64,000 nucleotides of DNA from Colwellia sp. 39_35_sub15_T18 (lineage in GTDB: Bacteria; Pseudomonadota; Gammaproteobacteria; Enterobacterales; Alteromonadaceae). The position numbers and the translations under genes were made by a program. The DNA lies in contig MAAE01000025.1 in NCBI GenBank assembly GCA_002162675.1, positions 62,001 to 126,000 of the forward strand. Reading direction: 5' to 3'. Numbering within the stretch: position 1 is the first letter of the stretch; each line of letters begins with the position of its first letter. The notes beneath the pieces are model-generated. The model saw only the letters and a program-made list of their open reading frames with translations. It searched no databases and had not been told where the DNA came from. Shown one piece after another: positions 3,544 to 49,968 of the stretch.

Positions 3544-3579
3544 CGCACTAACTGCTAAGCACTGAGTTAACATACGGGA

Positions 3580-4554
3580 TTGTCCATGTCGTTAGAAGCT
3601 TCACAATTAAATGAATTACACTGGTTGATGGAAATGTTGCATAACATTGACGTTGGCTTAGTCGTGTTAGATAAAAACTATAAAGTGCAAATATTCAATG
3701 GCTTTATGGAAAATCATAGCGGTTTGCTTCCTAGAGAAGTAAAAGATGAATCCATTTTTGATTTATTTGCTGAAATACCGCAAGACTGGTTTGAGCGAAA
3801 AGCTGAATCGGTTTTTTTACTTAAAAATAAAGCGTTTACTATTTGGGAGCAGCGACCTTATTTATTTAAGTTTGATAGTTATCGACCTGTTACGGGTAGT
3901 GCCGACTTTATGTATCAAAACACAACATTTATTCCCTTGCTTTCTTCTACCGGACTTGTAAGCCACTTATGTTTGCTAGTTTATGATGTCACTGATAATG
4001 CCGTGCATAAATTAAGTTTAGAAAAAGCTAACGAAGAACTTGCGATACTGAGCCAAACAGATGGTTTAACTAAACTGTTTAATCGCATTCACTGGGAAAG
4101 TTGCTTACAAGCTGAATATAAACGTTGGACGCGTAGTCAACACTCCAGCTCACTGGTTATGCTAGATATTGACCATTTTAAAAATGTTAACGATACTTAT
4201 GGGCACATGGTAGGGGATGAAGTGATCCGCCATCTTGCTGCTTTGATCCACGAGCTTGTTCGAGAAACTGATATTTCAGGGCGTTATGGTGGTGAAGAAT
4301 TTGTTATATTGCTGGCAGATACATCATTGAAAAACTCTTATATTTTCGCTGAACGCTTGCGTAAAGAAGTTGAGCAAGCGGTTGTTAAATATAATGATAT
4401 TGAGGTTAATTATACTATCAGTTTAGGGATAGCCGAAGTCGAGCCTTGTATTAAAAATTATGAAGCTTGGATTGAATGCGCGGATGCAGCCCTTTATCAT
4501 TCAAAAGAGAATGGTCGTAACAAGATTAGTTTGCACCCAAAACAGAGCAAGTAG
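3580..4554 (+). CDS. PAS-GGDEF diguanylate cyclase
   Basis: SGRYGGEEFVILL active site, PAS-like N-terminus. Confidence 0.9.
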   Translation: MSMSLEASQLNELHWLMEMLHNIDVGLVVLDKNYKVQIFNGFMENHSGLLPREVKDESIFDLFAEIPQDWFERKAESVFLLKNKAFTIWEQRPYLFKFDSYRPVTGSADFMYQNTTFIPLLSSTGLVSHLCLLVYDVTDNAVHKLSLEKANEELAILSQTDGLTKLFNRIHWESCLQAEYKRWTRSQHSSSLVMLDIDHFKNVNDTYGHMVGDEVIRHLAALIHELVRETDISGRYGGEEFVILLADTSLKNSYIFAERLRKEVEQAVVKYNDIEVNYTISLGIAEVEPCIKNYEAWIECADAALYHSKENGRNKISLHPKQSK

Positions 4555-4569
4555 ACGGTAGCCTAAAAT

Positions 4570-6147
4570 TTATTTACGCTTAAAAATATTAATGATCATG
4601 ATAGGCACTAAAATCATTAATAATAATATCAACCTTGGCCATTGGCTATAAGGTGTCTGCCCTACAACGAGAGGCACTTCTGTTTTCAAAACAGCCTCTT
4701 TAAATTGTGGAATGCGCGCTATAAAGTTTCCTTGGTGATCTACCACCCCAGTAATACCATTATTAGTAGCGCGAAGTAATGGTCTACCAAATTCAAGTGC
4801 TCGCATGCGCGCTATTTCCATGTGTTGATGTGGCCCATGAGAGCCACCAAACCAAGCATCATTACTCACCGTAAGTAGTAAATCAGTACTTTTAGTTAGG
4901 TTTGCAGCTAGCTGGTGCGGAAAGGCAATTTCAAAACAGAGTAAAGGCAATAAACTAAACTCTTTAGCAATTAAGTTCTGTTGTTGATAGTCGCCACGAC
5001 TAAAAGAAGACATGGGTAAATTAAATAAAGGGGCAATAGGGCGAAGCAGTTCTTGAAAAGGTACAAACTCACCAATAGGCAATAAATGGTGCTTTGAATA
5101 GCGATTACTGTGATTATAAAAATAACCCTGTTCATCATCTAAATGTTTTTTACCTAGCACTATTAAGCTATTAAAGTATTGTTTCGTTTCAAAATTGTAA
5201 TTAATTATACCAGTGATTATTGCGCTGTTATTTAACAAAGCAGAGCGGTTAACGCTAGTTAAATAGTCTTGTACAGCCGGCTCTATGGCTGGGATGGCTG
5301 ACTCGGGCCAGACAATGATATCGGCATCAAAGTTAACGCGGCTAAGATCTAAGTACTTAAGCATAGTAGGCCATTCTTGCTCGGGAGCCCATTTGATCGC
5401 TTGTTCAATGTTACCTTGTACTAAAGCAACCTTAACGGTTTTATTGGTAAGTTTAACCCAATTGCTTTGTGAAAAAAAAGTGCCTGTGCCAGTGATGAAT
5501 ATCAACAGGATAATAGGAAGGACGAAGGATGATACTTGACGGCGTTTTATCGCAACTATGATTTTAACCAAAAATATATTAATCAATAAAACCAATGCCG
5601 TGATGCCCACTTCACCTATTACGGGGGCGTAAACAGATAAAGGGCCGTCAATTTGACTATAGCCAAGTGATAACCAAGGGAAGCCTGTTAATACAACTGC
5701 ACGTAAATATTCAGCAAACAACCAAAATGAGGGTAGTAACCATAAATTAAGATTTTTGTCTTTTGAAAAACGTGCGGCTAAATAGGCAGAAAATGCAGGG
5801 AAAATAGCTAAATAAAGAGATAAAATTATCATTAAGCCAATTGAGACCACTAAGGGTAAACCACCAAATTGGTCAATACTAACATGCACCCAGCTTATAC
5901 CACTTGCGAACCAACCAAAGGCAAAAATTCCAACCAGTTTAGCGGCATATTTAGGTGCTCTGTTTTGGATTAGATAAAAGACAATACTGGGAATAAAAAG
6001 TGCTAAATACCAGAGCGAGAATGGTGCATAAGCAAATACTAAGCTTAACCCAGCAGCAAAGCATAACCAGTTTTTTTTATTGGTTAAGTTGTTTTTTAAT
6101 CGCTTAGCTAGCCGAAAAACCCGTGGTGATAAACGTGTTTTAGTCAC
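4570..6147 (-). CDS. lnt: Apolipoprotein N-acyltransferase
   Basis: Multi-TM N-terminus plus nitrilase domain (VWPESAIPA, LCFEIAFP, NDAWFGGSHGPHQH). Confidence 0.92.
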   Translation of the reverse strand: MTKTRLSPRVFRLAKRLKNNLTNKKNWLCFAAGLSLVFAYAPFSLWYLALFIPSIVFYLIQNRAPKYAAKLVGIFAFGWFASGISWVHVSIDQFGGLPLVVSIGLMIILSLYLAIFPAFSAYLAARFSKDKNLNLWLLPSFWLFAEYLRAVVLTGFPWLSLGYSQIDGPLSVYAPVIGEVGITALVLLINIFLVKIIVAIKRRQVSSFVLPIILLIFITGTGTFFSQSNWVKLTNKTVKVALVQGNIEQAIKWAPEQEWPTMLKYLDLSRVNFDADIIVWPESAIPAIEPAVQDYLTSVNRSALLNNSAIITGIINYNFETKQYFNSLIVLGKKHLDDEQGYFYNHSNRYSKHHLLPIGEFVPFQELLRPIAPLFNLPMSSFSRGDYQQQNLIAKEFSLLPLLCFEIAFPHQLAANLTKSTDLLLTVSNDAWFGGSHGPHQHMEIARMRALEFGRPLLRATNNGITGVVDHQGNFIARIPQFKEAVLKTEVPLVVGQTPYSQWPRLILLLMILVPIMIINIFKRK

Positions 6148-7018
6148 TCAATTTACCACGAACGTTATGCTTTTTATCCACTGTTACTTGTAACATTTGT
6201 AGACGTCTACTGTCAGCCGCTAACACTTTAAACTCAAAGTGTCCTAAGGAGACTTGCTCACCTTTTTTGGGCATATGATTTAGTTGCCCGATAATAATGC
6301 CGGCAATAGTATCAGCAGATTTTTCATTAAACTGACAATTAAAATATTCGTTAAAATCTTCAAGATCTGTTAAGGCGCGAACATTATAAACATTACCCGC
6401 AAGTAGTTTGATATCTTCTTCAATCTCATCGTCAGTTTCATCTTCAATTTCACCAACAATTTGCTCAAGGATATCTTCAATAGTGATAACGCCTGAAATA
6501 CCACCATATTCATCAGCGACAAGCGCCATGTGATATCGATTTGAGCGAAACTCTTTTAAAAGTGGTTCAACCTTTTTACTTTCAGGAACGATAATCGCAG
6601 GGCGAATAATATCTTTTAAACTAAATTCACCCGCTTCACTGCTAAAACCAAATGCCAGCAAGTCTTTTGCTAATAATATGCCATCGACATGATCTATATC
6701 TTCGTTGACAACAGGAAAACGGGAGTGACCAGATTCAAGAATAATGGGTAAAAACTCATTTAAATTATGATTACGATCGATAGTGACCATTTGTGAACGG
6801 GGGATCATAATATCGCGAACTTTCATTTCTGATACTTCGAGCACTCCTTCAATCATTAGTTTGGTTTCAGGATTGATCAATTCACGATTTTGAGCATCGG
6901 CTAAGACATTAACCAGCTCATCTTTATTTTTTGGCTCAGGGCTAAACCATTGAATAATGTTTTTCAATAATGACTTTTGTTTTGAGCCGTTGTTCGAGTG
7001 GGGGCTATCATCGCTCAT
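6140..7018 (-). CDS. corC: CorC/HlyC family CBS-domain protein
   Basis: KVRDIMIPRSQMVTID, GGISGVITIEDILEQIVGEIEDE. Confidence 0.9.
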   Translation of the reverse strand: MSDDSPHSNNGSKQKSLLKNIIQWFSPEPKNKDELVNVLADAQNRELINPETKLMIEGVLEVSEMKVRDIMIPRSQMVTIDRNHNLNEFLPIILESGHSRFPVVNEDIDHVDGILLAKDLLAFGFSSEAGEFSLKDIIRPAIIVPESKKVEPLLKEFRSNRYHMALVADEYGGISGVITIEDILEQIVGEIEDETDDEIEEDIKLLAGNVYNVRALTDLEDFNEYFNCQFNEKSADTIAGIIIGQLNHMPKKGEQVSLGHFEFKVLAADSRRLQMLQVTVDKKHNVRGKLSD

Positions 7019-7091
7019 AGAGCTTATTATCTTCCTTTAATTTGATTAAGTTAAGTTAAATATAATATTGTTTTTAACATAAAAAATAGCT

Positions 7092-7541
7092 TTAGTAAGG
7101 ATCAGCTATCGCTAATTTAGCTAAAATACTAATCTCTAATGCTTCCATTTCTTGTGCATCGCTATCGTTTATATGATCATATCCCAATAAATGCAAGCAA
7201 CCATGAATCACTATATGTGCCCAATGATCAAATAGGGCTTTGTTTTGGGCTTTTGCTTCTTGTTCAACAACATGGGCGCAAATAATTAAGTCGCCCAATA
7301 AATTAAGATCGATGCCATCAGGTACCTCAAAAGGAAATGATAAAACATTGGTAGGTTTATTGATATGACGATATTGATGGTTGAGTTGCTGGCTTTCATC
7401 CGTGTTTACCAAGCGAATTGTCAGTTCAAATATTTTACTAGTAACACTTTGCAAAGCTGCATCTGTCCAACATTGAAACTGTTCAAGTGAAGGAAGTTTT
7501 TTTTCATCACAAACAATTTGTAAGTCCAGCGTATTAACCAT
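7092..7541 (-). CDS. ybeY: Endoribonuclease/rRNA maturation factor YbeY
   Basis: VIHGCLHLLGYDH zinc motif; synteny with corC and phoH-like gene. Confidence 0.93.
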   Translation of the reverse strand: MVNTLDLQIVCDEKKLPSLEQFQCWTDAALQSVTSKIFELTIRLVNTDESQQLNHQYRHINKPTNVLSFPFEVPDGIDLNLLGDLIICAHVVEQEAKAQNKALFDHWAHIVIHGCLHLLGYDHINDSDAQEMEALEISILAKLAIADPY

Positions 7542-8641
7542 TATTTAGACTCATCATTGTTGTCATTTTGGGCTTTATTCTGATTGTTTACTTTTTGCTG
7601 TTTTTGTCGATTGATTTTTTGCTCATAAGCTTCATAAGCTTCGACTACCCGCCCAACAACAGGGTGGCGAACAACGTCTTTTGCCTGAAAAAAGTTAAAA
7701 CTTATGCCATCAATATTTTGTAAAACTTCAATGGCGTGTCGCAAACCCGAACGTTGGTGTTTAGGCAAGTCAACCTGAGTTATATCGCCAGTGATAACCG
7801 CACGAGAGTTAAAGCCAATACGGGTTAAAAACATTTTCATTTGCTCAACGGTAGTATTTTGACTCTCATCTAAAATAATAAATGCATCGTTTAGTGTTCT
7901 ACCACGCATGTAAGCTAATGGTGCAATTTCAATGACATTACGCTCTATCATTTTTTCAACACGTTCAAAACCAAGCATTTCAAACAGTGCATCGTAGAGA
8001 GGTCTTAAATAGGGATCTATTTTTTGAGATAAATCACCCGGTAGAAAACCCAATTTTTCGCCTGCTTCTACGGCGGGGCGAGTTAATAAAATTCGGCGAA
8101 CTTCTTGTCGCTCCAAGGCATCAACGGCACACGCAACGGCGAGATAAGTTTTACCTGTACCAGCAACACCAACACCAAAACTAATATCATGGGTTAAAAT
8201 ACTTTGCACATAATCTTGTTGGTTACCATTGCGAGGTTTCACCATACCGCGCTTAGTTTTAATGGTGACCATTTTGTCATAATTTGCTCCAAGCTCAGCT
8301 GCTTCTTTGCTTGTTGGCAAGTCTTGTTCAAGCACATTCGCTTCAACTATGGCAAGGTGTACCATTTCACCAGTGATCTGAGTACTTTGTCCTTTGACTG
8401 GAGCTGTCTCAATATAAAGATTCTTTAATAGCTTAATTACTGCTTGGCAATTTTTATCACTGCCCAGTATTTTAAATTGATTGCCACGGTAACTAATTTC
8501 AACACCTAAGCGACGCTCAATGGTTTTAAGGTTATCATCTATTGGCCCACATAAATTGGCTTGACGCTCATTATCAATAGGTGAAAGCGTTAATTGATGG
8601 TTTGCCTGCTTTAATATTTGCTGTTTAGTTGTTGCGCTCAA
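7541..8641 (-). CDS. ybeZ: PhoH-like ATPase (YbeZ)
   Basis: GVGVAGTGKTYLAVA Walker A, FIILDESQNTT Walker B. Confidence 0.93.
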   Translation of the reverse strand: MSATTKQQILKQANHQLTLSPIDNERQANLCGPIDDNLKTIERRLGVEISYRGNQFKILGSDKNCQAVIKLLKNLYIETAPVKGQSTQITGEMVHLAIVEANVLEQDLPTSKEAAELGANYDKMVTIKTKRGMVKPRNGNQQDYVQSILTHDISFGVGVAGTGKTYLAVACAVDALERQEVRRILLTRPAVEAGEKLGFLPGDLSQKIDPYLRPLYDALFEMLGFERVEKMIERNVIEIAPLAYMRGRTLNDAFIILDESQNTTVEQMKMFLTRIGFNSRAVITGDITQVDLPKHQRSGLRHAIEVLQNIDGISFNFFQAKDVVRHPVVGRVVEAYEAYEQKINRQKQQKVNNQNKAQNDNNDESK

Positions 8642-38132: not shown

Positions 38133-38796
38133 CCGATTAATACAGCTAGTTCATGTAGCCAAGCGAGAGCTTAACCTTGATGAAGACATTTACCGTAGCA
38201 TTTTAAACAATGTTACAGGCAAAAGCAGTTGCGCCAAAATGAGCATTAAAGAGCTTGAGCAAGTACTTGAACACTTTAAAAGTGTCGGCTTTACTGTGAA
38301 GAAAAAGCAAGTGAAAAAGAAAAGTAGCACTAACAAGCGAACAGCACCAAAGCTTAACCGTAGCGTATCACCAGAAAGTGGCAAAATTCGCGCTATTTGG
38401 ATAACCATGCACCAACAAGGCTTTGTGCGTGATGGCTCAGAGCAAGCCCTTGATAATTATATTAGCAGAATGCTTAACCGAAAAACGTTAGGTAAAAACA
38501 TCAGCTTTCATTGTCAGTTTTTAAACGGGCAACAAGCTTACAAGGTATTAGAAATCATTAAGAACTGGCACAAACGCGAGTTAATAAAGTGTCTTGATGA
38601 AAAATGGCAAGCGCTGCGTCTTCATAAACGCTTTACCTCATTAAGTCATTGTACTGCTTTGCTTTCAGGTAAAGCACCTAAACAAGAAAGTTATCAAAAC
38701 CTTTGTTTTATTTTTGATGAAGCTACAGGACAATGTGCTCCTGCATTGTCTAATCAGTCACATCCATGTGACGTAGGAGTAAGTAAAGAATTATGA
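38125..38796 (+). CDS. GemA/gp16-like regulatory protein (DUF1018)
   Basis: LIQLVHVAKRELNLDEDIYRSILNNVTGKSSCAKMSIKELEQVLEHFKSVGF. Confidence 0.88.
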   Translation: MRNRLIQLVHVAKRELNLDEDIYRSILNNVTGKSSCAKMSIKELEQVLEHFKSVGFTVKKKQVKKKSSTNKRTAPKLNRSVSPESGKIRAIWITMHQQGFVRDGSEQALDNYISRMLNRKTLGKNISFHCQFLNGQQAYKVLEIIKNWHKRELIKCLDEKWQALRLHKRFTSLSHCTALLSGKAPKQESYQNLCFIFDEATGQCAPALSNQSHPCDVGVSKEL

Positions 38797-39326
38797 AATT
38801 AGGCAGATGTCCAACGTGTCACGCCGCTGTTCACGTTGATGCCATGGTTCAGGATGAAGCAGGTAGAGAATTAATGGCCACACTGGCTAAATTGAATAGT
38901 AAAACGGGCAGTAGTGTTTTGCAATATGTAGGTTTATTTCGCCCAGCTAAAAGTGATTTAAACAATGGCCGAGCGTTAAAGTTACTTACCGAAGCATTAG
39001 AGTTAACCCCTAATTTACAATTACTTTCGGCTGGTTGTGATGCAACTGTGCGCAATATTCATGGTAAACGTAGCTCTTCACAAGGAACGGGCGAAACCGT
39101 TAAACCGTTAACCAATCACAACTACTTAAAACAAGTTTTAACAGGGCTTAAAGAGCAGTTTAATCACCCCGTTAACGGCATGAAAAGTGGTGCTAAAAAA
39201 GCAACTGATATGGGTAATGCTCAAGTCAAACATTACCACACGTTAAGTGATGTTGAGAATGAGCGTCTTCGCCAGGAACAATTAGCCAAGTTTAAAGTAA
39301 GTAAAAGAGCAGGAGAAAGCGCATGA
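38793..39326 (+). CDS. Phage hypothetical protein with N-terminal CxxC
   Basis: MKLGRCPTCHAAVHVDAMVQDEAGRELM. Confidence 0.6.
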   Translation: MKLGRCPTCHAAVHVDAMVQDEAGRELMATLAKLNSKTGSSVLQYVGLFRPAKSDLNNGRALKLLTEALELTPNLQLLSAGCDATVRNIHGKRSSSQGTGETVKPLTNHNYLKQVLTGLKEQFNHPVNGMKSGAKKATDMGNAQVKHYHTLSDVENERLRQEQLAKFKVSKRAGESA

Positions 39327-39742
39327 GCCAGCAAGAATCGTTAACCCTTGATTTAGGAAGTGATGACAACCTCAATGATTTATTAGCGCATAGCGACAGC
39401 TTGGCCAATGATGACCTCGCATGGCCTAAAATGTTAGCTGACTTAATTACCGTTAATGTTGCCGAACTAAAAGATGATGGCTTTGAACATAACGAAGCAT
39501 GGCGTATTGCCAAACGTTTGATCATACGTCAATCACACTTCTTAGGTGGTGGCATGGTCTATTTACCACGTAACGACAAACTTAAAAAAGCCTTGCGTGA
39601 TGCCAATTTGTACCATGATTTTAATGGCCATAACCACAGGGCGTTAATGAAAAAATATGATCTTACTCAGCAATCGGTTTATCAGATATGTGCAGAGCAA
39701 CGTCAGTTGTTCATTGATAAGAGGCAGGGGAAGTTGTTTTGA
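39323..39742 (+). CDS. Mor/C family transcription activator
   Basis: YLPRNDKLKKALRDANLYHDFNGHNHRALMKKYDLTQQSVYQICAEQR. Confidence 0.88.
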   Translation: MSQQESLTLDLGSDDNLNDLLAHSDSLANDDLAWPKMLADLITVNVAELKDDGFEHNEAWRIAKRLIIRQSHFLGGGMVYLPRNDKLKKALRDANLYHDFNGHNHRALMKKYDLTQQSVYQICAEQRQLFIDKRQGKLF

Positions 39743-39942
39743 TTCACTCTTGGATAAAAGTTGTTGATGAATTACCAAATGAAAGCTGCGAAGTATTAGC
39801 ATTTTTTAATACTCTAGGGTGCCAAGCTAAAGCAATTGTTTGGTATTCATCAGTGAAGCAAGAGTTCTTGTCATTAGAATGTGATGAAAAGTTAAGTATA
39901 CCAACGCATTGGATGTACTCACCAAATGAACCTAATCGCTAA
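39739..39942 (+). CDS. DUF551-like small protein
   Basis: HSWIKVVDELPNESCEVLAFF...PTHWMYSP. Confidence 0.6.
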   Translation: MIHSWIKVVDELPNESCEVLAFFNTLGCQAKAIVWYSSVKQEFLSLECDEKLSIPTHWMYSPNEPNR

Positions 39943-39994
39943 ATAATGGGCGTGACAGTCACGCAAAAAAAACGATAACTAACAAGGTGTCACG

Positions 39995-40351
39995 ATGAAA
40001 AAAGAACAGGCAGAAGCTGAGAAAGCAAGAATACGAGAACAAGCACGTTTACGCAAGCAAAAACAACGGGCTAAAAAGGCTGAGCTAGTGGTGAAAACCT
40101 TGGAAGTAAACGCCAGTGCTACCGAGCAACAGCAACTTAATGAGCAAGCTATAACGCGAGGCTTTGATAGTATCAGTGAATATTTAATGACACTGATGCG
40201 TATTGATGGTGATCGCATTGAACATGATCAAGCAGCTATTGGTACTTGCAATAGTTGTAAATTGCCATTACCACAAGGCTGTAACGCTGTTTTTAAAGGG
40301 CAGTTTGATTGTAGTTATATTCATGGCTTGCCGTTGATGAGTGTTAAGTAG
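39995..40351 (+). CDS. Phage hypothetical protein, basic coiled-coil N-terminus
   Basis: ORF start behind AAGGTGT. Confidence 0.5.
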   Translation: MKKEQAEAEKARIREQARLRKQKQRAKKAELVVKTLEVNASATEQQQLNEQAITRGFDSISEYLMTLMRIDGDRIEHDQAAIGTCNSCKLPLPQGCNAVFKGQFDCSYIHGLPLMSVK

Positions 40352-40425
40352 CTGTTATTATCCTCAGTGTTCACACCTTGAATCGTATGTAAATCACCCA
40401 AATCCCACTTAAATCCCACATTAAG

Positions 40426-40454
40426 TTGAATTGAAAAACGTTAATGTTTAATAT
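40426..40454 (+). promoter_or_regulatory. Sigma70-like promoter of the three-gene cassette
   Basis: TTGAAT-N17-TAATAT. Confidence 0.5.
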
Positions 40455-40543
40455 TCGCTTATCAAATATATGTAAACAAATCCTAAACACTTACTTTTAA
40501 GTAGGTGTTTCATTTTGAATTGTTCAAGGAGTTAATTATTTCA

Positions 40544-41044
40544 ATGGAAGCCTCAAATAAAATTCAGGGAATATTGCCGCCAGTGTTCATGGAAAAAGTA
40601 AGAAATGGACAAATTAAAGGTATGCCTACAGAATTACGAGACAATTTATTAAATGGGAAAATTAAAGGCTTACCACCAGAAATAATAGAAGCTTTCGAAG
40701 CTGGTACAGTTAATCAAGGGATCCCTCCTGAAGTTTTGGAAAAAATGGGTAATGGTCAAATGAAGCCAGGCATACAGCACAGAAGAGCTTCAAAGTATTC
40801 TGTTGAGTCGGTAACTGGTGCTGTATGCCACCAATTGAATGATAATAGGCTTGAATTATCATTTTACGCAGATCGCCCTGTTTGTGAATTTGAACTTCTT
40901 CCAGCCCTAGGAGAAAAAGGTGGTGAAATACATAGCGTTCCAACAAAAGAACATGTTACTGCTATAAACGTTTCATTAGATGATTTGAAAAATATACATG
41001 AAATGCTTTCAACTGTAATTGATAGAATGGAGCAAAGTAAATAA
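40544..41044 (+). CDS. Unknown protein with four ~16-aa GxPPE...NGxIK repeats
   Basis: ATG 40544 preceded by AAGGAG; repeats GILPPVFMEKVRNGQIK/GMPTELRDNLLNGKIK/GLPPEIIEAFEAGTVNQ/GIPPEVLEKMGNGQMK. Confidence 0.65.
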   Translation: MEASNKIQGILPPVFMEKVRNGQIKGMPTELRDNLLNGKIKGLPPEIIEAFEAGTVNQGIPPEVLEKMGNGQMKPGIQHRRASKYSVESVTGAVCHQLNDNRLELSFYADRPVCEFELLPALGEKGGEIHSVPTKEHVTAINVSLDDLKNIHEMLSTVIDRMEQSK

Positions 41045-41616
41045 TGCAAAGCATTGTTTCTACAAGCACCAAAGAATACGCTAATGATACTTCAATGGAT
41101 AATACTTTGATTTCATTAAGTTCAACTTCAATATCGTCTATTGCTTCAGTTAGTTCTATTTCAGTTGGGTCAGGAGTGACTTCTAGGACAATCTCATCTG
41201 TTGGTTCTGCAGGGATAATGGGAGCTGCATTGGCTGCATTCATTGCAGTTAATCCAGCCTTACCCCTTAAATTTAATGAACTAATATCTTTAGATTCATC
41301 TATAATGAGTGAAGCAAAGGAAAAAGATTCTTTTGTAGATAATATGCTACAAGTTAAAAGTACAAATGTGCTTGAGACTACTACTCTGACAGAGAGAGTT
41401 GCGATGGAAAATGATTTAGTCAAAAAAGAAAAGATATTAAAGCTAGGGGTTAATATTTCTTCGCTTGGCTGCATTCTTTTAGTTGGGGCTGCCGTATCAG
41501 GCATTCTTCCTGCTCTTACATGGATACCTGGGGCATTTTCAGCAGCAGGAGTCTTACTTTCTTGTGGCATTCAATTAAATAAAGTGGATGAAAAACGCAA
41601 AGGGTTGAGCACATAA
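41044..41616 (+). CDS. Unknown Ser-rich membrane protein, about two hydrophobic segments
   Basis: AGIMGAALAAFIAVNPALPL and LGCILLVGAAVSGILPALTWIPGAFSAAGVLLSCGIQL. Confidence 0.6.
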   Translation: MQSIVSTSTKEYANDTSMDNTLISLSSTSISSIASVSSISVGSGVTSRTISSVGSAGIMGAALAAFIAVNPALPLKFNELISLDSSIMSEAKEKDSFVDNMLQVKSTNVLETTTLTERVAMENDLVKKEKILKLGVNISSLGCILLVGAAVSGILPALTWIPGAFSAAGVLLSCGIQLNKVDEKRKGLST

Positions 41617-41617
41617 A

Positions 41618-41893
41618 ATGGCTTTTTTAGAACCATTGTTAAATTTTTTTCCTAATTTAGTTAAATCATTAACAAAAGCATTTCCAAAAAGTGATAATCA
41701 TAAGCTTAATATGATTTTTGATATATTGGGCTTTGTTGTCTTGATTGTTCTTGCGGGTATGTGGTTTGATAAAATGCCTAAAGTTACATTCGAGCAATCA
41801 AGCCAAATAGCGGAACTTTTAGCATATCCTTTTGTCTTTTGGTTTGTCTTTTCTTTGATTTGTTATTTAACGACATTATTTAAATCAAAATAG
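41618..41893 (+). CDS. Small membrane protein, two predicted TM helices
   Basis: MIFDILGFVVLIVLAGMWF and YPFVFWFVFSLICYLTTLF. Confidence 0.6.
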   Translation: MAFLEPLLNFFPNLVKSLTKAFPKSDNHKLNMIFDILGFVVLIVLAGMWFDKMPKVTFEQSSQIAELLAYPFVFWFVFSLICYLTTLFKSK

Positions 41894-41902
41894 TTATTCA
41901 AT

Positions 41903-41927
41903 AAAAAGCCTTTAGTTAGGCTTTTTT
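41903..41927 (+). terminator. Intrinsic terminator closing the cassette
   Basis: AAAAAGCCT-TTAGTT-AGGCTTTTTT. Confidence 0.85.
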
Positions 41928-41992
41928 ATTGCCTTAAATTTATCAAATAAGTTAAATTCGTTATTAGACTATCCATTTAAAATAGATTCAGA

Positions 41993-42049
41993 AGCATTAA
42001 TGCTGTTGAATCTCACCTAACTTAACCATGCCGCCATACTGGCGGCATG
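41993..42049 (+). promoter_or_regulatory. 57-bp late-control element, copy 1, ending on the endolysin ATG; 10-bp inverted repeat 42027-42049
   Basis: AGCATTAA-N7-GAATCTCA-N11-CATGCCGCCA-TAC-TGGCGGCATG. Confidence 0.75.
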
Positions 42050-42613
42050 AAACAAAATAACCTACCACATAAAATATTACTCGTTGATGATTCGCTACCA
42101 CCGGTAGCGAGTCAGGCCATTCTACGCATCCTTGAAGAAGAAAAAGGTTACGTTAATAACCCTAATGATAAAGGTCTTGAAACCAAGTATGGTATCACTA
42201 AACGCTGGTATCCAACCCTTGATATTAAAAACCTCACCTCAGTAAAAGCTTCGAAAATTTATTATCGTGATTATTGGTGTTTCAATAAGTGCGATAAGTT
42301 GCCGCAAGATATTGCCTTAACGCTTTTTGATAGTGCCGTAAACCAAGGGGGGAACTTCGCCCGTAAAGCTTTGCAACAAACTTTAAACGTTAAAGCAGAC
42401 GGTATTATTGGCAGTAAAACTATTGCGGCTGCCTTTGCTGCTCCTAGCCTTATTTTAATTACACAATTTACCCGATTGCGTTGCCAGCAATATACTAATT
42501 TAGTTCAAGCTGATATTAGCCAAGTTGAATTTATTGAAGGTTGGGTTGATCGCGCCTTAGATATTCTCCTTGAATGCCAGATAATTGCCGTATTTGGTGG
42601 TGATGCCCCATGA
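42047..42613 (+). CDS. Endolysin, glycosyl hydrolase 108 plus PG-binding domain
   Basis: ILRILEEEKGYVNNPNDKGLETKYGITKRWYP...LFDSAVNQGGNFARKALQQTL. Confidence 0.92.
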   Translation: MKQNNLPHKILLVDDSLPPVASQAILRILEEEKGYVNNPNDKGLETKYGITKRWYPTLDIKNLTSVKASKIYYRDYWCFNKCDKLPQDIALTLFDSAVNQGGNFARKALQQTLNVKADGIIGSKTIAAAFAAPSLILITQFTRLRCQQYTNLVQADISQVEFIEGWVDRALDILLECQIIAVFGGDAP

Positions 42614-42879
42614 CTCACGCCTTTAATTCAATCAAAGCCCGTAAACGATACTTTGAAGGTCGCCAAGCACGACTGCGCAAAGAAGTATTTAGCCGTTTGC
42701 AAGATTTACCTATTAATTACAGCTGTGTTTATCTTCGCCCTGAACATGCACGGCAGTACCGTCGTGGTTGGGATAGTGTCACGGCAATAGATATTGATGT
42801 AGCCGTTAAAAAAGTAAAAGCAGGTCAAGCCAAGTTACTACCTGAAACGCCACGCGTCCTTGGAGTGAATCATGCCTAG
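42610..42879 (+). CDS. Phage hypothetical protein
   Basis: ATGA-coupled ORF. Confidence 0.55.
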   Translation: MTHAFNSIKARKRYFEGRQARLRKEVFSRLQDLPINYSCVYLRPEHARQYRRGWDSVTAIDIDVAVKKVKAGQAKLLPETPRVLGVNHA

Positions 42880-43291
42880 CAATAAAACGAGAAAACATAA
42901 AAAGTCGCCTTATTTTATTGGCCGAGTACTCACGCACTGGTTGGCGCTAGAGTCTCGAAAAATGTTACTAGAAGAATCGTTTTCTTTTGTAGATGGCAAA
43001 GGTATTAAGTGGACAGCTCCTGCTGGCTCTATTATTGATGGTGCCAGTATTCCTCGCATTTTTTGGTACTGCATTGGCTCGCCATTTAACGGTCATTACC
43101 GCCGTGCCAGCGTGATACATGATGTTTATTGTGTCACTAAATCACGCCCTCACAAGCAAGTACACCGTATGTTTTATGACGCTATACGCGCTGATGGCGT
43201 AAGAAAAAGTAAAGCAAAAGCTATGTATATCGCTTTGAAAATTGGCGCACCTCGTTGGAAAAATTACCAAGAAAAAAGGAAAGGAATATGA
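42872..43291 (+). CDS. DUF1353 family protein
   Basis: APAGSIIDGASIPRIFWYCIGSPFNGHYRRASVIHDVYC. Confidence 0.9.
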   Translation: MPSNKTRKHKKSPYFIGRVLTHWLALESRKMLLEESFSFVDGKGIKWTAPAGSIIDGASIPRIFWYCIGSPFNGHYRRASVIHDVYCVTKSRPHKQVHRMFYDAIRADGVRKSKAKAMYIALKIGAPRWKNYQEKRKGI

Positions 43292-43506
43292 AAAAGATAA
43301 CTTTAATGGTGTTAGTTGCACTCACTACTGCTTGCTCAAGCTATGAATTTGGCGATGTTTCACGTGTTTATTGTGCTACTACAAGCACTGAACTTCGAGC
43401 CCAAATTAAAGTCACGCTAAAAGAAAACGGGGTAAGTATTGGCGTTGATTACTGTGCCAGTGCTGGCTTAGTTGATGCCATTTTAATTAAAAGCCCTAAG
43501 GAATAA
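43288..43506 (+). CDS. Small lipoprotein in the lysis region
   Basis: MKKITLMVLVALTTACSSYEF lipobox; ATG 43288 behind AAGGAA. Confidence 0.65.
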   Translation: MKKITLMVLVALTTACSSYEFGDVSRVYCATTSTELRAQIKVTLKENGVSIGVDYCASAGLVDAILIKSPKE

Positions 43507-43508
43507 CC

Positions 43509-43739
43509 ATGACTGACGTAGTAGATAAAGCTTGTGAACTTGAACAAAAACAGCGTGAACAAGCATTAGCTGCGGCTAGAGTGACAATAGAAAAGCCTAA
43601 GGAATTACATGGTCATCGTTATTGCCTTGACTGTGATCTTGAGCTAGATACAAATCGCTTAATTGCTAACCCAAAAGCAGTGCGTTGTGTTGATTGTCAA
43701 ACCTTGCTTGAGCATAAAAATAAGAGGTTTTATCCATGA
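43509..43739 (+). CDS. TraR/DksA-type C4 zinc finger protein
   Basis: HRYCLDCDLELDTNRLIANPKAVRCVDCQTLLEHK. Confidence 0.85.
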   Translation: MTDVVDKACELEQKQREQALAAARVTIEKPKELHGHRYCLDCDLELDTNRLIANPKAVRCVDCQTLLEHKNKRFYP

Positions 43740-44038
43740 TTAATTGGTTGCTGAAGTATTACCCTTTGGTATTTTTAGTGTTTAACGGTGTGTTTTGGCT
43801 AATTGTTTATGTATTGCATAAAACCTATGCCAAGCGTGAATCAGTAGACAATTTAGAAAAAGAGGTGCTACTGATTAAAACCAACATTAATAACCTGCCT
43901 GATAAAGATTTAGTGCATAAGTTAGAGCTGCGTATTGAAGAATTAAGCGGTGACATTAAGCGAATAGAACCAGGGCTTATCTCTGTTAAAAATTTATCTG
44001 ACATGTTGTTAGAAAACGAGTTGAAAAGTAAAGGCTAA
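43736..44038 (+). CDS. DUF2730-like membrane protein
   Basis: N-terminal TM plus coiled coil; position as in Mu-like phages. Confidence 0.7.
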   Translation: MINWLLKYYPLVFLVFNGVFWLIVYVLHKTYAKRESVDNLEKEVLLIKTNINNLPDKDLVHKLELRIEELSGDIKRIEPGLISVKNLSDMLLENELKSKG

Positions 44039-44050
44039 AAGGAAAAAACA

Positions 44051-44344
44051 ATGGCGATAGACAAAGTAATGAGCGAACACCAACGACTATCAATTTTATT
44101 AGCTCTTGGCGCAATGAATGGTTACCAAACTAATGATTCAATGCTGCAAAGTGCTTGTGCGGCTTATGGTCATACCATGAGCAATGACCGAGTGTTAAGT
44201 CATTTAGCCTGGTTAAAAGAACAAGGTTTAGTGTCATTAGAAAGCAATGGCGCCTACACCATGGCAACTTTATCAGGTCGTGGCCAAGATGTAAGCAACG
44301 GTATGGCTACTTGCCCAGGTGTTAAAAAACCGAGGGCTAAGTAA
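44051..44344 (+). CDS. VpaChn25_0724-like (winged HTH) phage protein
   Basis: HQRLSILLALGAMNGYQTNDSMLQSACAAYGHTMSNDRVLSHLAWLKEQGLV. Confidence 0.7.
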   Translation: MAIDKVMSEHQRLSILLALGAMNGYQTNDSMLQSACAAYGHTMSNDRVLSHLAWLKEQGLVSLESNGAYTMATLSGRGQDVSNGMATCPGVKKPRAK

Positions 44345-44622
44345 TGGCTAAAATTAAAGCTTTTACTGCAGGTGAAAAACGAGTTTTTCACAAGTTAGCT
44401 TTAGCAATGATTGCTGCAGAAATAGAAAGCCAAGTAATTAAACCTGCGACTGAAAAGGAAACGGGTAAGCCATATCAGTCAAAAGGCGGTTATTTAGATA
44501 TTTATTTAAAGAGTGATCCAACAGTTAAGCGTGTTTGGAATGCTTTTCAAAAAGAAGTTCAAAAGGTTCGTAGTGACTATTTAAAATATGCGGAGGCAGA
44601 GAAAGCTAATGAAGGAACGTAA
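44344..44622 (+). CDS. Phage hypothetical protein
   Basis: Packed ORF. Confidence 0.5.
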   Translation: MAKIKAFTAGEKRVFHKLALAMIAAEIESQVIKPATEKETGKPYQSKGGYLDIYLKSDPTVKRVWNAFQKEVQKVRSDYLKYAEAEKANEGT

Positions 44623-45181
44623 AACACGCGGAAAACCCTCAAAAGTTAACCAGCTGCCCGATGCGATTAAAAGCAAACTTGATCAACTGCTTCGAGATGG
44701 TCGATTAACGCAAACAGCCATCCTCAACAAAATCAATAAAATGATTGAAGAGGCTGAGCTTGCACAAGACGAGCAGCTGAGTAAATCAGGGTTAAATCGT
44801 TACTCAAGTAAAATGCAAGAAATAGGCTCACGTATCGCTCAAGCACGTGCAGTGTCTGAGCAATGGGTTGCTAAGTTAGGCGACAAGCCAAGTGGCGATG
44901 TCAGTAAAATATTGATTGAAATGGTACGGACTTTAGCGTTTGACAGCGTATTAGATGCCTCTAATTCAGACCAACCAGTACATCCTAAATTTATCAAAGA
45001 CCTTGCTATAGGTATTGAAAAACTAGAGAAAGCAGCAACAGAATCAACTAAACGTGAGAAAGAAATTCGTAAGGCGTTTGCTGAAGAAGCGGCGGCACTG
45101 GTGGAAGATGCAGTGGTGCAAGCAGGCTTAACCAGTGATGGTGCTAATGCCATTAAACGTGAAATTTTAGGTATTGTCTAA
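44588..45181 (+). CDS. DUF3486 / Mu gp27-like small terminase
   Basis: RGKPSKVNQLPDAIKSKLDQLLRDGRLTQTAILNKIN. Confidence 0.88.
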   Translation: MRRQRKLMKERKTRGKPSKVNQLPDAIKSKLDQLLRDGRLTQTAILNKINKMIEEAELAQDEQLSKSGLNRYSSKMQEIGSRIAQARAVSEQWVAKLGDKPSGDVSKILIEMVRTLAFDSVLDASNSDQPVHPKFIKDLAIGIEKLEKAATESTKREKEIRKAFAEEAAALVEDAVVQAGLTSDGANAIKREILGIV

Positions 45182-46794
45182 TGACTAACATGACGTCTGA
45201 TTTTAGAAAAACTAAACTAGCAGTTGAAATGGGAGACTATACACCATTTGACGAAAATGAATTATTACTCGGTTATCAAAAACGCTGGATAGCCGACGAA
45301 TCACCGTTAAAGATAGCCGAAAAATCTCGTCGTACTGGGTTAACTTGGGCTGAGGCTGCCGATGCGGTATTAGCTGCCAGTAAAACTAAAGCTGCCCACG
45401 GTACTAATCACTTTTATGTTGGCTCAAACAAAGAGATGGCGCGCGAGTTTATTGACGCGGCCGCTATGTGGGCGAAAGCCTTTGATAAAGCTGCAGGTGA
45501 TATTAAAGAAGATATATTCATTGATTCAGGGCAAGACGGTAAAGAAATTCTCACCTTTGCCATTCACTTTGCCAGTGGTTTTAAAATTCAAGCTTTAAGC
45601 TCAAACCCGTCAAATCTTCGTGGTATGCAAGGTAACGTCACCATTGATGAAGCTGCTTTTCATGACCGACTAGCTGAAGTACTCAAAGCAGCCTTGGCGC
45701 TTACCATGTGGGGTGCAAAAGTACGTTTAATATCAACTCACAATGGCACCGACAACTTATTCAATAACATTATTCAAGATAGCCGTGCAGGTAAAAAACG
45801 TTACTCAGTACATCGTATTACCTTAGATGATGCTTGTAACGAAGGTTTGTATCAACGTATTTGCCAAATTAAAGGTGATACTTGGAGTCGTGAAAAAGAG
45901 CAAGCATGGAAAGATGGTTTACTCGGTGATACAGCAACAGAAGACGATGCCTTAGAAGAATACTTTTGTGTGCCTAAGCAAGGCGGTGGTGTTTATATCA
46001 AGCGCGTTCTGGTTGATGAGGCCATGAAATCTGATATTCCTATTTTACGTTTTACTGCAGACAAAGATTTTTTAACGTGGTCAGTACGGCATAAACAAAT
46101 GCAAATTAAAGAATGGCAAGAGTCATTAAATCCGCATTTAATCGCCCTTAAAAAAGACTTAAATCATGCTTTCGGTGAAGATTTTGCCCGTAAAGGGGAT
46201 TTATCAGTATTTGTGCCATTACAAATAAATAAAGACTTAAGCAAACGTGTGCCGTTCTTACTGGAAATGAGCAACCTCACTTACGATGCCCAAAAAGAGT
46301 TGTTGTTTTATTTATGTGATCGACTACCTAGATTACAAGGTTTAGCCTTTGATGCTACGGGTAATGGTGGTTATTTAGCTGAGGCAGCTGCAGAGCATTA
46401 TGGCTGTGAAATGGTTGAGCAAGTCATGCTAACCGATAAATGGTACATGGAATGGATGCCTAAGCTTAAAGCTGAGTTTGAAGACTTCAATTTAGAAATT
46501 CCTCGTCACCAAGATGTGCAAGATGATCTTAACCAAATTCAAACCATTCGTGGTATTCCAAAAATAGACAAAGGCAGTACTAAAGGCAGTGATGGTCGTC
46601 AACGCCATGGTGATACCGCTGTAGGCTTAGCTATGGCCATTCGTGCCAGTTGGATGGATGGTGGGGTAATTGAATATACAGAGTTATCTCAAAAAGCGGG
46701 TACTTGGCACCAAAGCGAAAAAACCTTAAAAGATTACATGCGATCTGATCACAGTGGCGACAACCAACAGAATTATGACCAAGGAGCTTATTAA
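45181..46794 (+). CDS. Terminase large subunit (Mu gp28-like)
   Basis: LLLGYQKRWIADESPLKIAEKSRRTGLTWAEA; GLAFDATGNGGYLAEAAAEHYG. Confidence 0.92.
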   Translation: MTNMTSDFRKTKLAVEMGDYTPFDENELLLGYQKRWIADESPLKIAEKSRRTGLTWAEAADAVLAASKTKAAHGTNHFYVGSNKEMAREFIDAAAMWAKAFDKAAGDIKEDIFIDSGQDGKEILTFAIHFASGFKIQALSSNPSNLRGMQGNVTIDEAAFHDRLAEVLKAALALTMWGAKVRLISTHNGTDNLFNNIIQDSRAGKKRYSVHRITLDDACNEGLYQRICQIKGDTWSREKEQAWKDGLLGDTATEDDALEEYFCVPKQGGGVYIKRVLVDEAMKSDIPILRFTADKDFLTWSVRHKQMQIKEWQESLNPHLIALKKDLNHAFGEDFARKGDLSVFVPLQINKDLSKRVPFLLEMSNLTYDAQKELLFYLCDRLPRLQGLAFDATGNGGYLAEAAAEHYGCEMVEQVMLTDKWYMEWMPKLKAEFEDFNLEIPRHQDVQDDLNQIQTIRGIPKIDKGSTKGSDGRQRHGDTAVGLAMAIRASWMDGGVIEYTELSQKAGTWHQSEKTLKDYMRSDHSGDNQQNYDQGAY

Positions 46795-46796
46795 CT

Positions 46797-48419
46797 ATGG
46801 CTAACAACACGGCTAACCCCATTCAAACCGATAGCAACGGCAATAAGTTCCGCATTAAATATTTAAAAGAGCAGCAAACTGATGATGCCAAACTTGGCCA
46901 TTTACGCAACCATTACAGTGACCACCCAAGCAGAGCATTAACACCACAAAAACTAGCCGATATTCTAATAGGTGCAGAACAGGGTAATATTATTGCCCAG
47001 TGTGAACTAGCTGAAGACATGGAAGAAAAAGACGGTCATGTATTTGCTGAACTGCAAAAGCGCCGCCGTGCTTTGTTGGGTGTCGATTGGAAAATAGTGC
47101 CGCCGCGCAATGCCAGTGCAAGCGAGGTTAAAGACGCTGAAATGCTGCAAGAGCTATTCGAAGATATGACCTTTTTAGATGATGTCATCTTTGACATGTC
47201 TGATGCTATTTTAAAGGGGTTTTCTAATCAAGAGATCACTTGGCAACAGCAAAGTGTAGGTGCAAGCAAAGTGTGGCTACCATCTAATATTGAGTTTAAA
47301 GATCCCAGTTGGTTTATGACTCACCCAGCGCAAGAGTTAGGACAAAACCGCAATGAACTACGCCTGCGCGATAACAGCGCTGATGGTGAAGCATTACAGC
47401 CCTTTGGTTGGATCTCTCATTGTCATAAAACTAAATCAGGTTACTTAGCCCGCTCAGGCTTAACGCGTGTACTGGCTTGGCCGTATCTATTTAAAAATTA
47501 TAGTGTCCGTGATTTAGCCGAATTTTTAGAGATTTATGGTTTACCGCTTCGCCTTGGTAAATACCCAACAGGTGCTAGCCCAGAAGAAAAAAACACCTTA
47601 CTTAATGCCGTAATGAGTATTGGCCACAATGCAGGTGGCATTATTCCTAAAGGTATGGAAATAGATTTTCAAGAAGCAGCCAAAGGTACACAGCAGCCGT
47701 TTGAATATATGGTTAGTTTGATGGAAAAAACTATCTCTAAAGCTATTCTTGGCGGCACACTTACCAGCCAAGCAGACGGTAAAAGCTCAACCAATGCCTT
47801 GGGTAATGTACATAACGAAGTTCGCCAGGAACTGCGCGATAGTGACCTAAAACAAATTGCCAATACCTTAACGCGTGATCTCGTTTTTCCCATGTATTAC
47901 TTAAACGGCAAAAGTTATCAGCACCCACAACGGTGCCCGAAGTTTGAATTTGACATCACCGAAGCGGAAGACTTAAAAGCGTTCGCGGATTCTTTACCTG
48001 CGTTAGTTGATGTTGGTTTTAAAATCCCACTGAACTGGGCACAAGAAAAGGTACAAATACCTTTACCCAAAGATAACGAAACTGTTTTAGCTAAAGGTCA
48101 GTTAGTGGAAGAAATTGACGAAAGAAGCACACAAACAAAACTAAAAGCTATTCGCAAAATAGCGGCGCTTAAAGCTAAATCAGTAGCGCCTGAACAATTA
48201 GACAGCTTCACCAAGCAACTTACCAATGAAATGTCATCTGTTCTTCAAGGTTTTACAGGTGAAGTGCAGCAGCTGGTGGAGCAAGCTGAGTCATTAGAAG
48301 ATCTGCAATTATTACTAGCAGATTTAGATTTAGACGTAAATGAAGCAAACGAAGTGATGCAGCAAGCTTTTGTGGCCGCAGAGCTTGGCGGTCGTTTTGA
48401 TGTAAATGAAGGCGAATAA
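46797..48419 (+). CDS. Portal protein, DUF935 / Mu gp29-like
   Basis: FAELQKRRRALLGVDWKIVPP; GFSNQEITW; GGTLTSQADGKSSTNALGNVHNEVR. Confidence 0.93.
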   Translation: MANNTANPIQTDSNGNKFRIKYLKEQQTDDAKLGHLRNHYSDHPSRALTPQKLADILIGAEQGNIIAQCELAEDMEEKDGHVFAELQKRRRALLGVDWKIVPPRNASASEVKDAEMLQELFEDMTFLDDVIFDMSDAILKGFSNQEITWQQQSVGASKVWLPSNIEFKDPSWFMTHPAQELGQNRNELRLRDNSADGEALQPFGWISHCHKTKSGYLARSGLTRVLAWPYLFKNYSVRDLAEFLEIYGLPLRLGKYPTGASPEEKNTLLNAVMSIGHNAGGIIPKGMEIDFQEAAKGTQQPFEYMVSLMEKTISKAILGGTLTSQADGKSSTNALGNVHNEVRQELRDSDLKQIANTLTRDLVFPMYYLNGKSYQHPQRCPKFEFDITEAEDLKAFADSLPALVDVGFKIPLNWAQEKVQIPLPKDNETVLAKGQLVEEIDERSTQTKLKAIRKIAALKAKSVAPEQLDSFTKQLTNEMSSVLQGFTGEVQQLVEQAESLEDLQLLLADLDLDVNEANEVMQQAFVAAELGGRFDVNEGE

Positions 48420-48421
48420 TT

Positions 48422-48559
48422 ATGCTAGCCAAATTCATTAAACGATATAAGCGTTGGCATAATCGTTATCAGTTTAATAGGCTAACTATTATTGACCAAA
48501 AGTTATTTAAATTTCTTGAGCTTGATCCTGATTCACTTATCAAAAGAGGTGAGTTATGA
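48422..48559 (+). CDS. Small phage protein (45 aa)
   Basis: MLAKFIKRYKRWHNRYQFNR...IKRGEL; ATGA overlap with the MuF gene. Confidence 0.45.
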   Translation: MLAKFIKRYKRWHNRYQFNRLTIIDQKLFKFLELDPDSLIKRGEL

Positions 48560-49968
48560 CAGCCCGTTATGGCTCTTTACCCTTTAAAGAGGCGATAAGT
48601 TTTTTTCAAAATAAGTTAAACATACCGTCAGAACGTTGGGTTGATGTTTGGCGTGATGGCCATAACAGCGGCTTTATGGTCGCTGGTGCATTGAAAGATG
48701 ATTTGCTTAACGATTTTCGAAGAGCGGTTGATAGTGCGATAGCAGAAGGCAAAAGTATTGGTTGGTTTAAAAAAGAATTTAAAACCATTGTCGCTAAGCA
48801 CGGCTGGAGCCATACAGGTGAAGCCAATTGGCGTGCTAAAGTGATTTACGATACCAATATGAGACAAAGTTATAATGCTGGCCGGTATGAGCAGCTGCAG
48901 CACTTTGACTTTTGGGAGTATCAACATGGCGACAGCGTGCACCCAAGAGCAATGCACTTATCCTGGCACGGAACTGTTTTACCCAAAGAACATGACTTTT
49001 GGCAAACACACTTTCCACAAAATGGTTGGGGCTGTAAGTGTAAAGTGCGAGGCCGAACAGCTAAACAATTAGAGCGCCAAGGTAATAAAGTAAAGCTACC
49101 ACCTAAGACTGAAATTACCGAGTGGACAGATAAAGCCACAGGCAAAGTACATAAAATACCGAAAGGTATTGATCCAGGTTTTGATTATGCCCCGCGAAAA
49201 GTCGTAGTTAAGCAACAGCAACAAAAGCTTAGTGTTGAAAAAGCTAAGCCATTTGAACCACCAGAACGTATAGCCCCAACAGCATTTAGTACGGTAAAAG
49301 GTGCTGATGTTCATAGTTTAAATAGTAAATTAGCTGAATTTAAAACCGCTAAGCCTCAGTTTGACTTACTTGGTAAATTTTTAACAAAACACGAGGTTAA
49401 AACGTTATTTGTTAAAGCAAGTGAAATGACACCTCGCAGTAAAGCATCAAGGAAAATTAATGATGCGGTTATGGCTTATTTGCCTGACGCAGTTAAAAAG
49501 TATGGTCACAATAATTATACTTATCGCGCTAAAAGAGGCGCTATGCCTAACGGCTGGACGGCAGCAGAGCTTAATCATATAACTGTAAAGCTTGAGAGTA
49601 ACGCCAATTTTAACAAAGTAAATGTGAGTGAACTGATTAACGTAGTAGAGCTTGCTATACTTCAAGGTAAAGGCAATATTCCTCGTACATTATCTTCGAT
49701 AATTAGACACTGGGGAGATAGCGGTAATCATGGTGGTGCTATTATTACTTGGTTACATGAGCTTGGTCACCAAGTACATTTTAAAGCAGGTAGTCCTAAG
49801 CCACCTATGAACCGCAATATTAGTTTAACGCGGTACGGAAGTGATTTAGATGTTGAGTGGCATGCAGAGCACTTTGCTGCTTGGATGTTAAATAGAGAAG
49901 CGCTTGCTCGGTGGAATAATAACATTGCCGTGTATTTTGATAATTTGATGAAGAAGGCTTTACAATGA
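48556..49968 (+). CDS. MuF/gpF-like head morphogenesis protein with C-terminal zincin-like metallopeptidase domain
   Basis: MuF: YDTNMRQSYNAGRYEQ...HFPQNGWGCKCKVRGRTAKQL; C-terminus WLHELGHQVHF...EWHAEHFAAWML. Confidence 0.85.
   Translation: MTARYGSLPFKEAISFFQNKLNIPSERWVDVWRDGHNSGFMVAGALKDDLLNDFRRAVDSAIAEGKSIGWFKKEFKTIVAKHGWSHTGEANWRAKVIYDTNMRQSYNAGRYEQLQHFDFWEYQHGDSVHPRAMHLSWHGTVLPKEHDFWQTHFPQNGWGCKCKVRGRTAKQLERQGNKVKLPPKTEITEWTDKATGKVHKIPKGIDPGFDYAPRKVVVKQQQQKLSVEKAKPFEPPERIAPTAFSTVKGADVHSLNSKLAEFKTAKPQFDLLGKFLTKHEVKTLFVKASEMTPRSKASRKINDAVMAYLPDAVKKYGHNNYTYRAKRGAMPNGWTAAELNHITVKLESNANFNKVNVSELINVVELAILQGKGNIPRTLSSIIRHWGDSGNHGGAIITWLHELGHQVHFKAGSPKPPMNRNISLTRYGSDLDVEWHAEHFAAWMLNREALARWNNNIAVYFDNLMKKALQ

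Follow-up and report, generated by a model that had tools for sequence, protein, structure and literature searches.

The cassette lies in the window (the whole 64-kb stretch of DNA analysed) in a slot bordered on the left by the gene for a Mor-family activator (39323-39742; PF08765, 4.4e-27), with a phrog_536 regulator (39995-40351; 85-91% identical in the related loci L107 and L112) as its immediate left flank, and on the right by the gene for a GH108 endolysin (42047-42613; PF05838 4.8e-22, phrog_315 7.9e-46), all on the plus strand; the position, between Mor-region early genes and the lysis block, that the original prediction had given it. Three genes, also on the plus strand, occupy the slot between 40544 and 41893, their coordinates and junctions confirmed as first described: orf1 (40544-41044), orf2 (41044-41616) and orf3 (41618-41893). 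The three look translationally coupled, since orf1 and orf2 overlap by a single base (TAATG) and orf2 and orf3 are separated by a gap of the same size. With a G+C content of 35%, against about 40% in the flanks, the genes also show the deviant base composition expected of a moron; some 6% of same-size windows are lower.

Predicted properties of the products agree with the earlier description of one soluble repeat protein and two membrane proteins. The first, orf1 (166 aa), has zero hydrophobic segments and begins with four repeats of 16-17 residues each (consensus GxPPExxxxxxxNGxIK; GILPPVFMEKVRNGQIK / GMPTELRDNLLNGKIK / GLPPEIIEAFEAGTVNQ / GIPPEVLEKMGNGQMK), followed by a C-terminal beta/helix region. 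The second, orf2 (190 aa), is a membrane protein with two to three TM-like segments, located near residues 49-75 and 131-178, and is Ser-rich as had been noted, with Ser/Thr making up 47% of its first 55 residues. The third, orf3, is only 91 aa in length, with two TM helices (about 30-48 and 65-85) and basic N- and C-termini. Structure prediction, proposed at the outset as a check, was carried out for orf1 and orf2, and both single-sequence AlphaFold models are of low confidence (pLDDT 52 and 48, respectively) and too poor for fold searches. The orf1 model, poor overall, gives every repeat one short helix (residues 13-20, 29-36, 45-53 and 62-69; local pLDDT about 60-80), with a beta-beta-beta-alpha arrangement in the C-terminal region.

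None of the three proteins had been recognised as a Mu-like core function, and our searches bear this out. For orf1-3 we found no credible relative in Pfam, PHROGs, NCBIfam or PADLOC, including any PADLOC or PHROG defence match, nor any match to a host pathway; the same was true of phage and plasmid records (tblastn) and of IMG/VR, save for a single contig, 3300029317_000052, which is 100% identical over more than 12 kb and represents the sole other copy of the cassette in the collections searched. No credible relative of orf1 or orf2 was present among PDB sequences or GTDB contigs, or of the proteins looked for in sampled whole genomes (orf1 and orf2 in those of relatives, orf1 and orf3 in those of the class). 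Weak matches to orf1 in L148 and to orf2 in L005 and L006 were rejected, as they run opposite to, or out of frame with, longer ORFs.

Upstream of orf1, the promoter of the original prediction, TTGAAT-N17-TAATAT, is indeed present at 40426-40454, with a putative -35 element (TTGAAT, 40426-40431) and a putative -10 element (TAATAT, 40449-40454; 4/6 consensus, a chance-level match by itself). Taken together the hexamers match 8/12 consensus positions, a type of site that occurs about 9 times per kb per strand here. Promoter-like sites in the region are no commoner than in shuffled sequence (18 observed, 17.3 expected). The -35 hexamer, however, forms the end of a longer leader block, AAATCCCACTTAAATCCCACATTAAGTTGAAT (40400-40431, plus strand), that aligns over 34 nt at 91% identity with the leader preceding the unrelated cassette of L107 (E 5e-5); from shuffles of the 64-kb window, 0 matches to it are expected. 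In L107 the block reads AAATCCCACCTAAATCCCGCATTAAAGTTGAATT, and is followed by TATACT at 18-nt spacing. In the set of loci compared for it, the block was confined to two phages, that of the window and L107/L017. The putative promoter is thereby lifted above chance through conservation, its -35 block being common to a phage with unrelated genes downstream.

Between this putative promoter and the ribosome-binding site of orf1 there is an 11-bp, attenuator- or terminator-like hairpin (40485-40510, plus strand; -11.2 kcal/mol, z -3.4)—a feature absent from the original description. L107 carries a homologous stem (AACACCTAC...GTAGGTGTT) that is longer and has a T-rich tail (AACACCTAC...GTAGGTGTTTTTGTTTTT; -17.8 kcal/mol, z -4.2); the leader shared by the two phages (~82% identical) consists of AAATCCCACYTAAATCCC...TTGAAT plus hairpin. 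Any transcript starting from the promoter at 40426-40454 must pass the hairpin, and the picture of a self-contained cassette with its own promoter is therefore plausible rather than established: the leader shared with L107 speaks for it, the chance-level hexamers and the hairpin against. The hairpin may act in attenuation, end transcription arriving from upstream or stabilise the 5' end, and its presence makes expression of the cassette uncertain.

Neither element of the leader serves as a general marker of the slot. Other exact matches to the leader motif in viral contigs are about as numerous as expected by chance, and a near-match in G021 lies outside any phage slot; a hairpin of terminator type ahead of the first cargo gene was seen in the window, L107, L112 and L113 and in none of the other ten slots scanned, using a strict scanner that itself missed the hairpin of L107. 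Two short reading frames were also observed in leaders of relatives: a possible leader peptide with a good SD sequence (MFTIHGWGDG; L112:2238-2320), situated before an attenuator-like hairpin, and another (MEHLLF; L107:3328-3378) overlapping the left arm of the hairpin. Either may be due to chance; if real, they could provide translation-coupled attenuation of cargo expression.

At its other end the cassette is closed by an intrinsic, bidirectional A/T-tract terminator (41903-41927, plus strand; -12.1 kcal/mol, z about -3, with 1/200 shuffles as good), in keeping with the strong terminator described at this point. Pairing between its T-run and its A-run hid it from a simple terminator scanner. 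Part of the element, AGGCTTTTTTATTGCC, is conserved at the same place in L107, and the cassette can thus be said to have a terminator of its own, as morons do.

Beyond the terminator, most of nine relatives have a dyad upstream of the endolysin ATG, TACTAAC-N4-GTTAATA (TTTACTAAC-N4-GTTAATA; columns 10-29 of alignment A5), of which the window lineage has a variant at about 41995-42012; we infer a Mor/C-type late promoter here, the dyad being a candidate Mor/C activator site. The right border of the slot itself is formed by a hairpin, CATGCCGCC-ATACT-GGCGGCATG (42027-42049, plus strand; -18.8 kcal/mol, z -6.2), that has the endolysin start codon inside it. In the same 13-sequence alignment (A5: window, L112, L107, L016, L013, L113, L015, L115, L114, L108, L131, L132 and L133), 98.5% of pair cells are paired and two pairs have changed on both sides. 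No obvious Shine-Dalgarno sequence accompanies the ATG in this conserved hairpin, and the arrangement has the look of a switch controlling translation of the lysis enzyme. By eye, other hairpins can be seen directly before the endolysin ATG in L135, L136, L138, L157 and L159.

A comparison of the junction across related Mu-like prophages, proposed in the original prediction, shows that close relatives carry other genes there. Both flanks are shared at the DNA level with L112 and L107/L017 only. L112 is 95.1% identical to the window on the left (38343-40368) and 98.7% on the right (42613-49288), and by these values is the same phage species on either side of the slot; its endolysin region is 66% identical to that of the window and, in place of the cassette, it has a single gene for a 288-aa DUF4760 membrane protein (1e-18). 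L107 (genome G025; the same phage as IMG/VR contig L017) has flanks about 82% identical, between which lie two unrelated genes, encoding proteins of 89 aa and 123 aa (the latter with one TM segment), as well as an extra 50-aa TM-like ORF nearer the left flank. The leader and terminator on either side match those around the cassette in the window, and are thus common borders enclosing different genes. The three genes of the window were found in none of the relatives compared, so that what had been set against a moron—all three genes in every relative, with a role in lysis or structure—did not occur. On this comparison the slot is hypervariable.

Of five features considered typical of morons, three are found here: insertion between genes that are adjacent in related phages (and replacement in close relatives), base composition and a terminator. 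The cassette is very probably exchangeable accessory cargo. Its description as a moron-type module, filling a hypervariable slot that has the Mor-region regulators of a Mu-like prophage on one side and the endolysin on the other, is well supported by presence or absence at the junction, replacement in a near-identical phage, AT-richness and the shared leader and terminator. The simple claim to an own promoter is weakened by the hairpin.

What such cargo may do is suggested by the occupants of equivalent positions in other Mu-like relatives. Several of these have Mor or C at the left flank; L013, L108, L015 and L131-L133 have instead a repressor-like gene plus early region, and for them strict correspondence with the window is limited to the right border. 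L108 (genome G026, of the same genus; 2973-5215) encodes an NA37-family protein (4e-49) with similarity to the antiphage protein DS1_1 (NF053868, 2.8e-11) alongside a membrane protein similar to DS1_2 (NF053869, 1.5e-7); a DS-1-like antiphage pair inside a Mu-like prophage, directly 5' of the endolysin. L113 has a Trypco2-like protein (6e-4), a PIN_8 protein (5e-63) and a weakly SLATT-like protein with two TM segments (5e-4), and L131 a weakly SLATT-like protein and one of 138 aa; the DS-1 and SLATT scores fall under curated cut-offs. L136 encodes three proteins: ImmA/IrrE (capP-like, 5e-18), SocA/Panacea (9e-21; NCBIfam SocA 5e-34) and one with two TM-like segments. In L138 a PDC-S42 protein (a PADLOC candidate, 1.8e-35; its NCBIfam name is 'putative phage structural') is accompanied by two small membrane proteins, a layout—one soluble plus two membrane proteins—equal to that of the cassette in the window.

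Further genes fill the slot in other relatives. L013 has genes for a 304-aa protein and a 4-TM protein, L115 three genes, two of which were scanned and gave no Pfam match, and L015 a lipoprotein. L132 (5848-8553) encodes a 901-aa, sensor-kinase-like Reg_prop/HATPase protein and L133 (about 4828-7755) a similar-looking one of 975 aa; each is preceded by a similar-looking small exported protein, and together they make odd phage cargo. Between Mor and the lysozyme (or the unnamed gene in its place), Shewanella phage MuM16-2 and Vibrio phage 1.028.O each encode just one protein, which has a signal peptide; in the mitomycin-inducible Shewanella phage MuM16-1, the stretch from C to the lysozyme holds a gene for a ClpP-like protease and others besides. 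In the head-gene region of MuM16-1 (L158:13047-14289) we also see an inserted regulator and RNA-directed DNA polymerase, a second cargo site that possibly carries a defence reverse transcriptase.

The cassette thus sits where related phages carry DS-1-like, PIN_8/SLATT-like, Panacea and PDC-S42 genes, and by location its most likely job, held at about even odds, is to shield the host cell against competing phages, by membrane-acting superinfection exclusion or abortive infection. The candidate role offered by the original prediction hence gains from the company the cassette keeps, and loses from the lack of any defence-family match for orf1-3. Several slot occupants, moreover, are not obviously defensive (L132/L133, L015, the Shewanella and Vibrio records, the ClpP-like protease), and the leader hairpin could block lysogenic expression, which would also count against defence. 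The low-confidence structure models, the structural name of PDC-S42 in NCBIfam and the sub-threshold DS-1 and SLATT scores weigh on the same side. The fuller proposal, of an undescribed three-gene, membrane-acting antiphage system (a helical-repeat sensor with two membrane effectors) in a defence hotspot at the junction 5' of the endolysin, with its cassettes exchanged inside a common attenuator-like leader and a common terminator, is more tentative and we hold it to be doubtful.

The same neighbouring slots might be read as evidence that the cassette acts on the cell envelope as cargo for lysogenic conversion or host fitness of some other kind, with no specific antiphage purpose, given that signal-peptide proteins or lipoproteins without defence annotation occur at equivalent positions (L015, L157, L159 and L158). 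We think this rather unlikely, as the annotated cargo of neighbouring slots is rich in defence and conflict-system domains and orf1-3 gave no host pathway match.

A part in lysis, with orf3 and/or orf2 acting as holin or antiholin, is improbable, even though orf3 resembles a class-II holin in its size, its two TM helices and its basic termini, and is encoded some 154 bp ahead of the endolysin, fitting the description of a holin as a small membrane protein (1-4 TM segments) from a gene close to that enzyme's. In L107, L015, L108 and L133 a gene for a GTA-type, holin-like protein of ~184 aa, with three TM-like segments, is present 3' of the endolysin; it is absent from the window phage, where a DUF1353 gene and a small lipoprotein replace it (42872-43506). 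The DUF4760 protein in the slot of L112 is likewise a membrane protein, so that a function shared across the slot is possible. Phage Mu, on the other hand, lacks a holin and has a DUF2730 releasin instead (PMC9239132), and a DUF2730 gene is present here also (43736-44038). L112 retains the window's downstream lysis block (98.7%) while lacking orf1-3; the three genes are not kept with it. Between orf3 and the endolysin lie both the terminator and the likely late promoter, and orf1-3 should not, in consequence, ride on the late transcript.

Membrane proteins are unusual among anti-CRISPRs, and two of the three cassette proteins are of this kind. It is correspondingly improbable that orf1-3 are anti-defence or lytic-phase accessory genes, expressed lytically against host immunity in the manner of anti-CRISPR genes, although the cassette, being 3' of the Mor operon, could be read from it, and anti-CRISPR genes are found in a low-GC variable region (RGP G) of P. 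aeruginosa Mu-like phages (PMC4378225).

The cassette is exchanged as a unit between the leader (promoter block plus hairpin) and the terminator. Returning to defence or exclusion, a working model would have orf1, the soluble repeat protein, as sensor or regulator and the small membrane proteins orf2 and orf3 as effector; upon infection by another phage, the effector would alter or depolarise the inner membrane, or block DNA entry. Expression in the lysogen, the defence function and the split of roles among the three proteins are parts of the model that we infer. RexA/RexB of phage lambda is a prophage-encoded combination of soluble and membrane protein. The cassette shares this logic, proposed for exclusion, with the Rex pair (which is mentioned in PMC4378225), but sequence similarity is not detected and there are two membrane partners as opposed to one. 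The DS-1-type pair (NF053868/NF053869) offers a similar combination of soluble and membrane protein, at the equivalent slot of L108; orf1-3, however, match neither model, and the L108 pair is itself below the family cut-offs.

Among known arrangements, the closest kinds are morons, the regions of genomic plasticity of Pseudomonas Mu-like phages (PMC4378225) and the defence hotspots of P2-like prophages (PMC9519451). Like the morons of lambdoid and HK97-like phages (PMC4378225), the cassette is placed between two conserved genes, deviates in composition, is flanked by a (putative) promoter and a terminator, and is missing from close relatives; it differs in having three coupled genes, not one, and a hairpin between the putative promoter and the first gene. 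The P. aeruginosa regions likewise hold variable, low-GC accessory genes at fixed positions, some of them engaged in phage-host conflict; accessory ORFs there are mostly of 34-100 codons, and the authors recognised no common flanking sequences (PMC4378225), whereas here leader and terminator are common to two cassettes. The P2-like hotspots, too, have genes (there, defence genes) swapped at one set place in the prophage with core genes on either side (PMC9519451), but belong to another phage type and lie at another position, and a defence role for the cassette is only a candidate one. In a literature search that was not exhaustive, no paper came up in which the junction preceding a Mu-like endolysin is described as a defence hotspot.

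The slot provides a searchable address, directly 5' of the Mu-like endolysin, at which phage-conflict cargo may be predicted among unknown genes, and the three ORFan proteins of the window become candidates that can be tested as a new exclusion system. That one leader and one terminator frame different cassettes suggests modular exchange of defence genes by transposable phages; and, should the junction prove to be a hotspot for antiphage systems such as the one proposed here, the leader would control whichever cargo is installed.
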